Positions 5,701-24,406 of a stretch of DNA of 33,509 nucleotides are shown here, one piece after another. A program made the translations under genes and the position numbers. The notes beneath the pieces are model-generated. The model did not search any database. It saw only the letters and a program-made list of their open reading frames with translations, and had not been told where the DNA came from. Numbering within the stretch: the stretch's first letter is position 1; every line of letters starts with the position of its first letter. The DNA comes from Thermoflexus hugenholtzii JAD2 (GTDB taxonomy: Bacteria > Chloroflexota > Anaerolineae > J036 > Brachytrichaceae): assembly GCA_945877855.1 (NCBI GenBank), contig CAMDWA010000032.1:1-33509 (forward strand), given 5' to 3'.

Positions 5701-6195
5701 TTAAAAATACGACTCAGGCGTAACGTCATACATAACGCTAACTTCACGCAATGGGGGACTGGCATACAAACTAAAGTGCGAGCTTACACCCTTGTAATGT
5801 GGTGCGTTATCGATATCTAACACATACTCTAATGCTGCAACTGTGCTGGTTGCTACATGATGTGTTTTTTGATTTTCCACATAGGCCACAGCTATTGGCA
5901 GCTGTTTTTCGCCCAGGGTTAGCACGCCATAGCCGCGTTGCCATTGCAATTTAAATTCATGCGAGCTTGCGCCTTTTACAAGATGTAACAAATCTGCAAT
6001 CGCTACTTTAGGCGGCACCGACACAATCATATGAATATGGTCATGCCAGCCATTAATTGCATGAACCATTGTTTCAAGCTCATTGGCTTTGCGAACGCAA
6101 TATGCAAACAAACGCGGCTCAATGTCAGGGGTAATGAGCGCCTCGCGGTTTTTTGTGCTCCAAATTAAATGATAAAACGTGCGCCAATATGACAT
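5701..6195 (-). CDS. REP-associated tyrosine transposase (Y1_Tnp, IS200-like fold)
   Basis: 164-aa single-strand DNA transposase of the HUH superfamily. The metal-binding pair is His53-x-His55 in HDHIHMIV. The nucleophile is Tyr105 in AYVENQKTHH, followed by the conserved Asn-Gln and His-His that mark the RAYT/IS200 group. The N-terminal YHLIWSTKNR is also typical. There is no tnpB or accessory gene. Palindromes lie directly upstream (6251-6347) as expected for REP-RAYT loci, where the domesticated enzyme nicks and moves REP hairpins. A GATAAT box ends 8 nt before its ATG. The last residues (about 150-164) may derive from the former kinase leader, since the stop is one base from the kinase ATG. 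Confidence 0.88.
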   Translation of the reverse strand: MSYWRTFYHLIWSTKNREALITPDIEPRLFAYCVRKANELETMVHAINGWHDHIHMIVSVPPKVAIADLLHLVKGASSHEFKLQWQRGYGVLTLGEKQLPIAVAYVENQKTHHVATSTVAALEYVLDIDNAPHYKGVSSHFSLYASPPLREVSVMYDVTPESYF

Positions 6196-11642: not shown

Positions 11643-11735
11643 ATAGATTCTGAGTTAATAAAAAGTCTTGCCGATTTCACGATCGATCCCTCAAAGCTAC
11701 GCTTTGGGGGATCGATCGTGAAATCGGCGAAAACC
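11643..11735. repeat. Family A hairpin, copy A3
   Basis: The left flank AGATTCTGAGTTAATAAA leads into GCCGATTTCAC. Arms 11670-11697 and 11701-11728 pair over 28 bp with a single T-G wobble and a 3-nt loop (TAC). The right side continues GAAAACC. It fills the gap between two convergent genes, ending 13 nt from the stop of the minus-strand amidohydrolase. Confidence 0.9.
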
Positions 11736-13334: not shown

Positions 13335-13593
13335 AGTTTAATAATTAAAATTATGCTTGATTTATATCATAACGTTGCGTAGATTATGAGTATATCTCCT
13401 AATATCTCATTATTTTCGTGGTGCAAAGAAAGTTTTTCTCAGCAAATTCGGTCTAAAGAATGAGAAGGAAATAAGTTAATAGCAGATAGTAGATAGTGGA
13501 TAGTTAAGAATAAATCGTAATACCTTGATCTGTTACTTCATCCCTCAACCTTGAACCACTATCCACTATCTGCTATCTACCACTTCTGGTAAA
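13335..13593. repeat. Intergenic region with family B fold-back B2
   Basis: The left arm about 13481-13508 (words AGCAGATAGT, AGATAGTGGATAG) pairs with the right arm about 13553-13584 (ACTATCCACTATCTGCTATC). A further small inverted repeat, ACCACTT/AAGTGGT, abuts the GTG start of the next gene. The remaining A/T-rich 140 bp (13335-13475) show no gene and no clear promoter. Confidence 0.75.
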
Positions 13594-15855
13594 GTGGTAG
13601 GCGTGGCAATAAAGAGACGCTGGCGATGGGATCATGGGCTGCTATTTGTGGCTGGGCTATTGCTTTATAGCGCAACCTTACAAACCGATGTGCAAGCCGC
13701 CGACAGCGGCGAATTTCAGGTTGTCGCGTGGACATTTGGCATTGCCCACCCGCCCGGTTACCCGCTGTTTACCCTCATCAGCGGGCTATTTGCCCATTTA
13801 CCATTGGGCAGCCCTTATGCCCAAATGGCGTTTATGTCGGCGCTGGTTTCAGCCATCACTTTGGTATTAGTGGCTGCGAGCACCGCCAAAATCGCTCAAA
13901 CCCAACATTTCAGCACTTTATTACCCGCGCTTGCCCTCGCCACCAGCACCACCTTTTGGGCACAAGCCACCACCGTCAATATTCGCAGCCTGACCACATT
14001 TTTTATGGCGCTCATGCTGTGGGCCATGTTACAAAATACCCGTTGGGGCCTAATCTTGTTTTTTGCGGCCTTTGGCTTGGGGGTTGGGCATCATCTGTCG
14101 TTGCTTTTTCCCGGGGCCGTGTTTGCTGTTTATGTTTTGGTGAATTGGGTGCGCAGCGGGGCAATACGCCGCGCCCACGCGATAGGGCAGGCCATCATCA
14201 TTGCTGCCGCCAGCCAATTGGTTTGGCTCTACCTGCCGATTCGAGATGCCGCCAACGCCCGCTTTGCACCCGGCAACCTCAACACCTTCGCCAACGTGCT
14301 CTATCACATACGCGGTGGCGGCTTCGAGGGCGATATGCTGTATTTTGTCTTCAAAGAACCCCAATTATTGTGGGATCGTTTGGCATTATTACCGCAATTG
14401 CTCACTTTTCAATTTGGCCCCGTCTTGCCTTGGTTGATGGCGCTTGCGGCACTCAACTTGCTCATTCGCCGCACATGGCTCGCCTGCACTTTGTTGCTGG
14501 CTTTTGCCTTGCATTTATTCATCACCCTCACCTATCGCGCCCCCCAAACCGTCGAATATGCCCTGCCGGCATGGCTCATTGCCTGTGTCGCCATTGGCGA
14601 AATTAAAAATTTAAAATTTAAAATGGAAAATGGAAAATTAGACCAATTTCTAATTCCTAATTTTAAATTTTTCATTTTAAATTTTAAATTTGCAATTCTC
14701 TTGGTTTTCGTCGGCCTAAATTTCAGCCAACGTTTGCCAAGTTTTGTGGCGTTGGCAAATGACCACAGCGTGCGTGATGCCGCCCAACGCACGCTTGAAA
14801 ATGCCGCACCCAACAGCCACATTTTTGCTCAATGGCATCAGGCCACCCCGATGTGGGCCATGCAAAGCATCGACGGTCTGCGCCCCGATGTCACCGTCGA
14901 GTATGTTGACCCGCGTGGCGGCGCGGCTTACGCCACCCAATTCGCCCGCCGCATCGCCCAATCGACCGCACCCGCCCGCTATGCCACCAGCTACGATGCC
15001 GCTGCCTTTGCCACCGCCAATTTATGCGCCATCCCCCAACAAGCCATTCCGGTATGGGAGGTATTTTCATGCCCACTGACCAGTGCCAAGCCAAGCGCTA
15101 CAGCGCACTCGCCGTTGCTGTTTGATGGGCGCATCGACGTTTTTAGCGTCAAGCCCGACCGCGAGGCCATTCAACAAGGCGGGCGCTTCGACGTTATCGT
15201 CATTTGGCGGTCAGCCGCGGGTTTTGTCGATGGCGATTCGCTCAGCGTGCGCCTGATGTATCCCGATGGGCGTTTGGCAAGCAATATCGACCTGCGGCTT
15301 GACCCGCAGCAACAGCCCGGCCAAGTGCAAGCGCAGCGTATTACACTCGGTGTGCCGCTTGATTTGCCGCTCGGCCCGCGCCCGTTGCTCATCGGGGCCT
15401 ATCGCAGCGGGCAAATTTTTAAAACACCAGCCAACAGCGATTTTGTGGCTGTTGAATCGCTGCTCGTGCAGCCAAATACAAGCGAGATAACGCAGCCCCC
15501 GCCCAGCATCATTCGCTTTGCCGACCAAATGCAGTTAATGGCTGCCAACATTCAGCGGCGTGGCGATGTTGCCATTGTTGACCTCGACTGGCTAGCCTTG
15601 CAGCCACTGACCACCGATTACATCGTGTCAGTGCGGCTCGAAGGCGATGGCTTTTTCAAATCTCACGATGGCGTGCCCGCCTTGGGGGCCATCCCCACCC
15701 TCAAATGGCTGGCCGGTTCGCGCATCACCGACCGCCACGTCATCGCGCTCGATGGCTATCGCGGCCCCCTGCGTGGGCGCGTCGTCGTCTACGATTCGAC
15801 GACCGGCCTCCCCCTGCCCAAACTCAGTAGGGAAGTGCTGAGTTCTGAGTTCTGA
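13594..15855 (+). CDS. DUF2723 membrane protein (GT-C/PMT-like)
   Basis: 753-aa polytopic membrane protein with the DUF2723 hallmark near the N-terminus: Gln-Thr-Asp-Val-Gln then AADSGEFQ, followed by GIAHPPGYPLFTLISGLF and MSALVSA. About ten transmembrane segments run to residue 380. DUF2723 is related to protein O-mannosyltransferases and is frequent in Chloroflexota and Bacteroidota. The soluble C-terminus (about 400-753) carries beta-rich modules (GGRFDVIVIWRSAAGF, LGPRPLLIGAYR) like those on the GT-C protein upstream. The start is GTG at 13594 or 13603. Residues about 336-368 (Lys/Phe/Asn-rich) are encoded by an A/T-rich fold-back. The last residues LSSEF come from CTGAGTT tandem words, and the stop lies there. 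Confidence 0.82.
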   Translation: MVGVAIKRRWRWDHGLLFVAGLLLYSATLQTDVQAADSGEFQVVAWTFGIAHPPGYPLFTLISGLFAHLPLGSPYAQMAFMSALVSAITLVLVAASTAKIAQTQHFSTLLPALALATSTTFWAQATTVNIRSLTTFFMALMLWAMLQNTRWGLILFFAAFGLGVGHHLSLLFPGAVFAVYVLVNWVRSGAIRRAHAIGQAIIIAAASQLVWLYLPIRDAANARFAPGNLNTFANVLYHIRGGGFEGDMLYFVFKEPQLLWDRLALLPQLLTFQFGPVLPWLMALAALNLLIRRTWLACTLLLAFALHLFITLTYRAPQTVEYALPAWLIACVAIGEIKNLKFKMENGKLDQFLIPNFKFFILNFKFAILLVFVGLNFSQRLPSFVALANDHSVRDAAQRTLENAAPNSHIFAQWHQATPMWAMQSIDGLRPDVTVEYVDPRGGAAYATQFARRIAQSTAPARYATSYDAAAFATANLCAIPQQAIPVWEVFSCPLTSAKPSATAHSPLLFDGRIDVFSVKPDREAIQQGGRFDVIVIWRSAAGFVDGDSLSVRLMYPDGRLASNIDLRLDPQQQPGQVQAQRITLGVPLDLPLGPRPLLIGAYRSGQIFKTPANSDFVAVESLLVQPNTSEITQPPPSIIRFADQMQLMAANIQRRGDVAIVDLDWLALQPLTTDYIVSVRLEGDGFFKSHDGVPALGAIPTLKWLAGSRITDRHVIALDGYRGPLRGRVVVYDSTTGLPLPKLSREVLSSEF
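14600..14697. repeat. A/T-rich tandem-word fold-back inside DUF2723 gene (B6)
   Basis: The left arm 14600-14641 (words TTTAAAATT, AAAATGG) pairs with the right arm about 14650-14697 (TTTTAAATT, CATTTTAAAT). Base composition is sharply unlike the flanking gene, yet the frame remains open and encodes KNLKFKMENGKLDQF and PNFKFFILNFKFA. Confidence 0.85.
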
Positions 15856-15945
15856 GTAGAAAGTACAAAGTGGCAAGTGGCAAGTGCAAAGTAGAGAACA
15901 ACTTGTTTACTACTTTGCACTTACCACTTGCCACTTTGCACTCTA
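15835..15945. repeat. Family B fold-back B3
   Basis: CTGAGTT tandem words (to 15857) precede a left arm 15862-15900 of AAGTGGCAAGTGGCAAGTGC-type words. The right arm 15903-15942 is its complement. The element contains the stop of the DUF2723 gene and abuts the stop of the convergent KTSC gene. Confidence 0.85.
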
Positions 15946-16152
15946 TATCTTCTCCCACGCATACGTGGTTTTGATGAAATGGGCAAAAAATTGACCGATG
16001 GAGGGCGCAGCTAGCAAGTCGCGGTAGACGCGCTGTGGCACAGCATAATATTGATAGACCTCGCCGCTGTTAAATTCGACCTCAAGCGTCTGGGTATTGG
16101 GGTCATAACCCACCGCGCATAAGCTGCTCGACTCCACTAATTTGCGTTTCAT
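15943..16152 (-). CDS. KTSC-domain protein
   Basis: 69-aa protein consisting of one KTSC domain. It begins with a Ser-Ser pair, then VGYDPNTQTLEVEFNSGEVYQYYAVPQRVYRDLL and ends with the FAHFIKTTYAWEKI segment that in the family reads near Lys-Thr-Ser-Cys/Tyr. Function is unknown; the domain occurs alone or fused to nucleic-acid enzymes. The start at 16152 begins the domain and has GGGAG 9 nt upstream; the longer reading to 16191 crosses the TATACT promoter-like box. It converges on the DUF2723 gene. Confidence 0.8.
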   Translation of the reverse strand: MKRKLVESSSLCAVGYDPNTQTLEVEFNSGEVYQYYAVPQRVYRDLLAAPSIGQFFAHFIKTTYAWEKI

Positions 16153-20375: not shown

Positions 20376-20466
20376 CATTTAGTTAAAAATATTGCCGATT
20401 TCACTATATCCATCCCTACCGTAGGCAGGGATGGATATAGTGAAATCGGCGAAAACTTGTTTTGGC
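20376..20466. repeat. Family A hairpin, copy A5
   Basis: Arms GCCGATTTCAC + TATATCCATCCCT (20394-20417) and 20427-20450 pair over 24 bp. The right tail GAAAACTTGTTTTGG (20451-20465) matches A1 and inverse A7. It forms a tandem pair with A4 between two convergent genes. Confidence 0.88.
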
Positions 20467-24322: not shown

Positions 24323-24406
24323 CGCAGATTCCAAGTTGATAAAAGTTTCGCCGATTTCACTATCTCGCCTCCAAGCGCTGCTTGGAGGCGAGATAGTGAA
24401 ATCGGC
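24323..24406. repeat. Family A hairpin, copy A6
   Basis: The left flank GCAGATTCCAAGTTGATAAA leads to GCCGATTTCAC. Arms 24350-24376 and 24380-24406 are perfectly complementary over 27 bp with loop GCT. It lies between divergent transcription units, so it is not simply a terminator there. Confidence 0.92.

Follow-up and report, generated by a model that had tools for sequence, protein, structure and literature searches.

How does a complete inverted repeat come to be read as protein inside a membrane protein gene? The question was raised by a 33,509-nucleotide stretch of Chloroflexota DNA (hereafter the window), in which a first-pass annotation made from the letters alone had reported an A/T-rich fold-back lying in frame, as an exact insertion of about 98 bp that added about 33 residues to the protein. 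Our analysis suggested that the fold-back is very probably an old copy of a dispersed heptamer palindrome, translated in frame, tolerated and drifting. The features on which the argument turns are as follows:

13594..15855, + strand: host gene of a 753-aa TMEM260-like (PF11028) membrane protein, with a putative GTG start
14601..14641, + strand: left arm of the heptamer hairpin (41 nt), located by repeat search; encodes a Lys/Glu/Asn-rich, probably disordered loop
14642..14656, + strand: loop between the arms (15 nt), where conservation between sister species is lowest
14657..14697, + strand: right arm (41 nt); encodes NFKFFILNFKFAI, with which the last predicted membrane helix begins

The fold-back and its host protein

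The host protein matched the Pfam profile PF11028 with an E-value of 5.5e-23 and a score of 82.1 bits, which is above the curated cut-off of 24.2; we take this family to be the one that had earlier been named DUF2723. Orthologues of the TMEM260-like protein were present in 58 of the 60 relatives searched. Its AlphaFold model, with a mean pLDDT of 71, gave structural matches to the GT-C glycosyltransferases ALG12 and ArnT.

The two arms of the fold-back are 88% complementary, its G+C content is 13.3% in a host gene of 57.3%, and the ORF from 13594 to 15855 stays open across it, so that it encodes residues 336-368, EIKNLKFKMENGKLDQFLIPNFKFFILNFKFAI. A complete A/T-rich inverted repeat interrupting a G+C-richer gene without breaking its frame, as first described, was thus confirmed. 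The predicted RNA fold of the region reached -33 kcal/mol versus -14.7 (sd 2.95) for shuffled sequences (z = -6.2), and none of the 200 shuffles folded as well. The arms are built of heptamers with a period of 7 (AAAATTT AAAATTT AAAATGG AAAATGG), which describe the array better than the word TTTAAAATT proposed before. Four period-7 arrays of equal strength were counted in the window, versus none expected from 30 Markov-randomised versions of it.

In the orthologues of the two sister species (93% and 80% protein identity), the fold-back occupies the same site in the same frame and at the same length, with no indel. The alignment revealed that it is absent from the TMEM260-like orthologues of G002, another member of the genus, and of other genera, and no equivalent Lys/Phe-rich segment, which the first-pass annotation had named as the contrary observation to look for, was seen among these aligned repeat-free relatives. 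The gain in length is much smaller than the repeat. Counted on the alignment, the loop together with the start of the final helix takes up 44 residues here, 37 in G002 and 31 in the shortest relative, which leaves a net excess of only ~7-13 residues and not the 33 of an exact insertion. This difference counts against our explanation and suggests that native sequence was lost or replaced; we infer that the entry of the repeat into this gene was accompanied by the loss of some of it.

In the AlphaFold model, residues 338-354 on the left-arm side form a loop with pLDDT below 50, and the right arm begins the long helix 355-388, which is the last one of the protein. When residues 336-368 were removed in silico, one hydrophobic segment was left where two helices belong. 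The right arm is therefore probably now part of the last membrane helix, according to a model of medium confidence. The placement of the repeat in a tolerant loop before the final helix was accordingly correct for its left half, the right arm instead supplying the first part of the modelled helix.

Dispersal of the family and its host genes

The fold-back turned out to be one of many in-frame copies and not the local oddity that the first-pass annotation had implied. A search with the 98-bp query revealed about 40 places in its own genome, with family hairpins of 70-126 nt, and similar copy numbers in G003 and G001; no match was found in G002, a further genus member. Among the 298 genomes of the class, three had a match at E <= 1e-8, all of them congeneric MAGs (Chloroflexota, kin of Thermoflexales). 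The sister genomes are recorded as MAGs REEB501 and AQU-02; Roseilinea and further members of Thermoflexales come next in relatedness. A BLAST search of plasmids in PLSDB, with the low-complexity filter on, gave no match to the repeat.

Since all three repeat-bearing genomes are apparently MAGs (two of them by name), and palindromic reads can be made by whole-genome amplification (PMC13265396), the repeats might be products of assembly or amplification. The same sites, however, are filled in three separately assembled, sequence-divergent genomes, and the frames are intact in conserved genes. Such an origin is extremely improbable, and an assembly artefact was rejected in view of the sites shared among the three MAGs.

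Copies occur in intergenic DNA as well as in frame within genes. In the own genome, 17 of 44 copies lie inside stop-free frames of at least 250 codons, a count made on stretches chosen because they hold the repeat, with three of the 17 being single arms. Translated copies give a stereotyped peptide, NLKFKMENGKL...SFSILNSKF, and annotators who meet such stretches within real enzymes can read them as repeat-derived. Openness is what defines a long ORF and therefore proves nothing alone for the copies inside ORFs; the weight for in-frame insertion comes from homology on both sides of the insert and from the finding that only 16 of the 48 other copies have any open frame. The hosts that could be named with Pfam and NCBIfam are listed below:

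Enzymes, first group: NAD-dependent DNA ligase (LigA), RlmN, galactokinase (GalK), heavy-metal (copper-type) P-type ATPase
Enzymes, second group: molybdopterin dehydrogenase, UDP-sugar dehydrogenase, MoeA, RACo, CobD, WecG
Other hosts: ABC-F-like protein, several membrane proteins
Hosts seen in sister genomes: DegT aminotransferase, amine oxidase-like protein

DNA topoisomerase I (TopA) is also a host in a sister species. Homology on both sides of the insert was found for LigA, RlmN, TopA, GalK, the P-type ATPase, MoeA, RACo, CobD and others. In LigA, RlmN and TopA, the insert is absent from relatives, among which the same positions vary in length, and the solved homologues of LigA, RlmN and galactokinase are gapped in the alignment at the insert position. 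The long RlmN loop of G002, when searched, gave no inverted repeat. LigA and RlmN each have one full-length match in their own genome, and the host proteins are presumably made and working with the insert. The earlier view of the fold-back as a repeat that became protein was upheld, in that a dispersed genomic repeat is read in frame here and is missing from repeat-free orthologues.

Age and fate of the inserts

Searches with the flanks of copies that lacked a located orthologue revealed that most sites are filled in the sister species too, so most insertions are older than the three species. Comparison of the sister species gave no clean empty site whose ends could be defined. In the ABC-F gene (L118/L225) G001 is without the insert, and at L113/L205 its sequence differs, the ends not being clean. 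Recent mobility of the A/T family was accordingly not supported for want of a clear empty site between sister species, and insertion as a discrete unit is a matter of inference for the same reason; the copies presumably arose through mobility or a copying process.

In the pair of most closely related genomes, changes at codon positions 1, 2 and 3 numbered 52, 50 and 62 in the inserts (1089 nt) and 102, 68 and 421 in the flanks (8757 nt), all counted on stretches chosen around the repeat, in which orthologous copies are not independent. The inserts changed at a rate of 0.151, versus 0.144 at flank third positions. Length changes of copies inside ORFs were multiples of 3, twice amounting to 21 (three heptamers), and those of intergenic copies mostly were not.

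These data bear on the proposal that the inserts have been adopted, with selection on amino acids keeping a useful loop or helix and the right arm serving the TMEM260-like protein as a working membrane helix. The modelled position of the right arm in the last helix and the predicted loss of a hydrophobic segment without it are consistent with adoption, as is the right-arm peptide, which has changed little in the closest sister species (NFKFFILNFKFAI versus NFPFFILNFKFAI). Over all inserts, however, changes fall evenly across codon positions and as fast as at flanking third positions, and deletions of 7-8 residues have occurred in the inserts of LigA, xanthine dehydrogenase, WecG and ABC-F. Adoption is thus unlikely, and the even spread of changes left selection on the peptide unsupported across the inserts.

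It was also considered that the hairpin is kept as a DNA or RNA structure, for instance one that signals pausing, processing or termination within the message, with which the strong predicted fold and the presence of the same hairpins between genes would agree. The arms of a copy, however, paired equally well across genomes and within one, and double changes that preserved a pair were few, which indicated that the palindrome is not being kept; termination within LigA or TopA would moreover be harmful. A structural role is therefore very improbable, and selection on the hairpin was rejected, as there was no compensatory pairing.

The simplest reading of the sequence comparisons would be neutral drift under constraints on frame and stop codons. 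In the preferred explanation, an old, tolerated palindrome, the element would consist of tandem heptamers, with 4-5 words in each of two arms and a short loop between them. Its entry into the TMEM260-like gene would date from the common ancestor of the three sister species or from earlier, and the copies that survive would be those lying between genes or at an indel-tolerant gene position in a stop-free frame. In the TMEM260-like protein, the first half may lengthen a flexible loop, and the second half may have become the first part of the final membrane helix. Drift of the inserts would be about neutral under only two rules, to keep the frame and to make no stop, and the hairpin would no longer be maintained. 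Three related genomes make the fate of such inserts measurable, as change that is even over codon positions and bound to the frame, with pairing lost.

Known repeats and other hairpins

The closest known systems are RPEs, followed by Wolbachia elements and Methanocaldococcus jannaschii repeats. RPEs (Ogata et al. 2000, 2002) are described as short dispersed hairpins, present between genes and in frame in conserved genes, at insert sites that are common to related species and lie at surface or loop positions; on present knowledge, they are tolerated and not useful (PMC2229807, PMC3767692). The Rickettsia Gmk protein is translated and active with its insert (PMC2229807). If an RPE-like repeat is taken as a palindrome of ~80-150 bp at many places, intergenic as well as in frame in conserved genes, at tolerant positions and absent in other lineages, the Chloroflexota family agrees, with hairpins of 70-126 nt at about 40 places, 17 of 44 copies in frame in the repeat-selected stretches with Pfam homology around them, and the inserts of LigA, RlmN, TopA and the TMEM260-like protein together with the gaps in structures. 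It likewise resembles Rickettsia RPEs in its conserved hosts and shared sites. Unlike it, RPEs measure 105-146 bp and are not described in these sources as tandem heptamers (PMC2229807, PMC3767692). In this comparison of behaviour, the heptamer structure, the variety of words and the Chloroflexota lineage of the host set the repeats apart from RPEs. The repeats of Wolbachia and M. jannaschii are also palindromes read as protein in housekeeping genes (PMC2996958, PMC2229807); they belong to other lineages.

Most known cases of protein-coding palindromic repeats have so far come from Rickettsia, Wolbachia and a single archaeon. With over fifteen genes that host in-frame copies, the Chloroflexota clade implies that such repeats also recur in bacteria remote from obligate intracellular ones. 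Our literature search found no description in Chloroflexota, which is weak evidence given its partial coverage.

STRR repeats of cyanobacteria have a tandem heptamer unit, with several different words per genome. The period-7 arms of the Chloroflexota hairpins likewise consist of tandem heptamers, which links them to the high number of heptamer repeats, so far unexplained, in certain bacteria. Heptamer repeats are described in Nostoc and Xanthomonas (PMC4692102). The leading feature of the Chloroflexota repeats is their placement in frame within many enzymes, which is not known to be reported for STRR and other bacterial heptamer repeats. Nematomorpha mitochondria, too, have inverted repeats inside translated genes; there the repeats are perfect and under selection, with both arms encoding conserved regions, whereas the Chloroflexota arms drift and their peptide is unconserved (PMC6649704).

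A palindrome scan of 208 kb, in stretches chosen around the A/T repeat and hence not an unbiased genome count, revealed hairpins of AATTACG, ATTTTGG, AAGGATG, GGTTAAT, ATAGTGG, AGTAGTC, ATGAGCC and GGGATTA words, so that at least eight different words share the same period-7, paired-arm architecture. The heavy-metal P-type ATPase gene carries three in-frame hairpins (L119:1655-1749, 2365-2442 and 2918-2992) with the words GGGATTA, ATTTTGG and AAAATTG. In the RACo gene (L107:3376-3417 versus L204 of G003), one arm has been rewritten between sister species from a GAAAATT-type to an AGAACCA-type heptamer, with nearly identical flanks and the frame kept. On the grounds of at least eight words with one architecture, the word switch in RACo and repeated in-frame entry into conserved genes, we tentatively raise the possibility, which we hold to be rather doubtful, that a word-independent process builds or copies tandem-heptamer hairpins in these genomes. 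If so, protein lengthening would be driven by the hairpin architecture and not by one transposon sequence.

Several further hairpins were observed. The loop of an A/T heptamer hairpin at L214 of G003 (orthologue of L105:14696-14785) encloses a second hairpin, which is of another kind and richer in G+C. The Roseilinea TMEM260-like orthologue (L032:2361-2445 and L189:3024-3108) contains a different G+C-rich in-frame hairpin in the same loop, suggesting that this loop has accepted palindromes more than once; BLAST found the hairpin to be single-copy in its genome, and we therefore do not propose a second dispersed family in Roseilinea. In the window, an ATAGTGG-type heptamer hairpin (13484-13578) lies directly upstream of the GTG start of the TMEM260-like gene. 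Another, of AGTNNNN words (15838-15947), spans the 3' end of the gene and encodes its final residues and stop codon, an arrangement common to G003.

REP and REPIN sequences, which are accompanied by Y1 (RAYT-type) transposases (PMC3733652, PMC3116915), are dispersed hairpins too, and an IS200-like Y1 gene is present in the window. REPs are mostly extragenic and 20-40 bp long, unlike the Chloroflexota heptamer hairpins. The Y1 gene of the window (5701-6195, - strand) encodes an IS200/IS605-type Y1 transposase (PF01797, NF033573) and is possibly RAYT-like. Near-perfect hairpins that start with GCCGATTTCAC and have 3-nt loops were found at window positions 11670-11728, 20394-20450 and 24350-24406, and they form a family of their own, REP- or MITE-like and separate from the heptamer hairpins.
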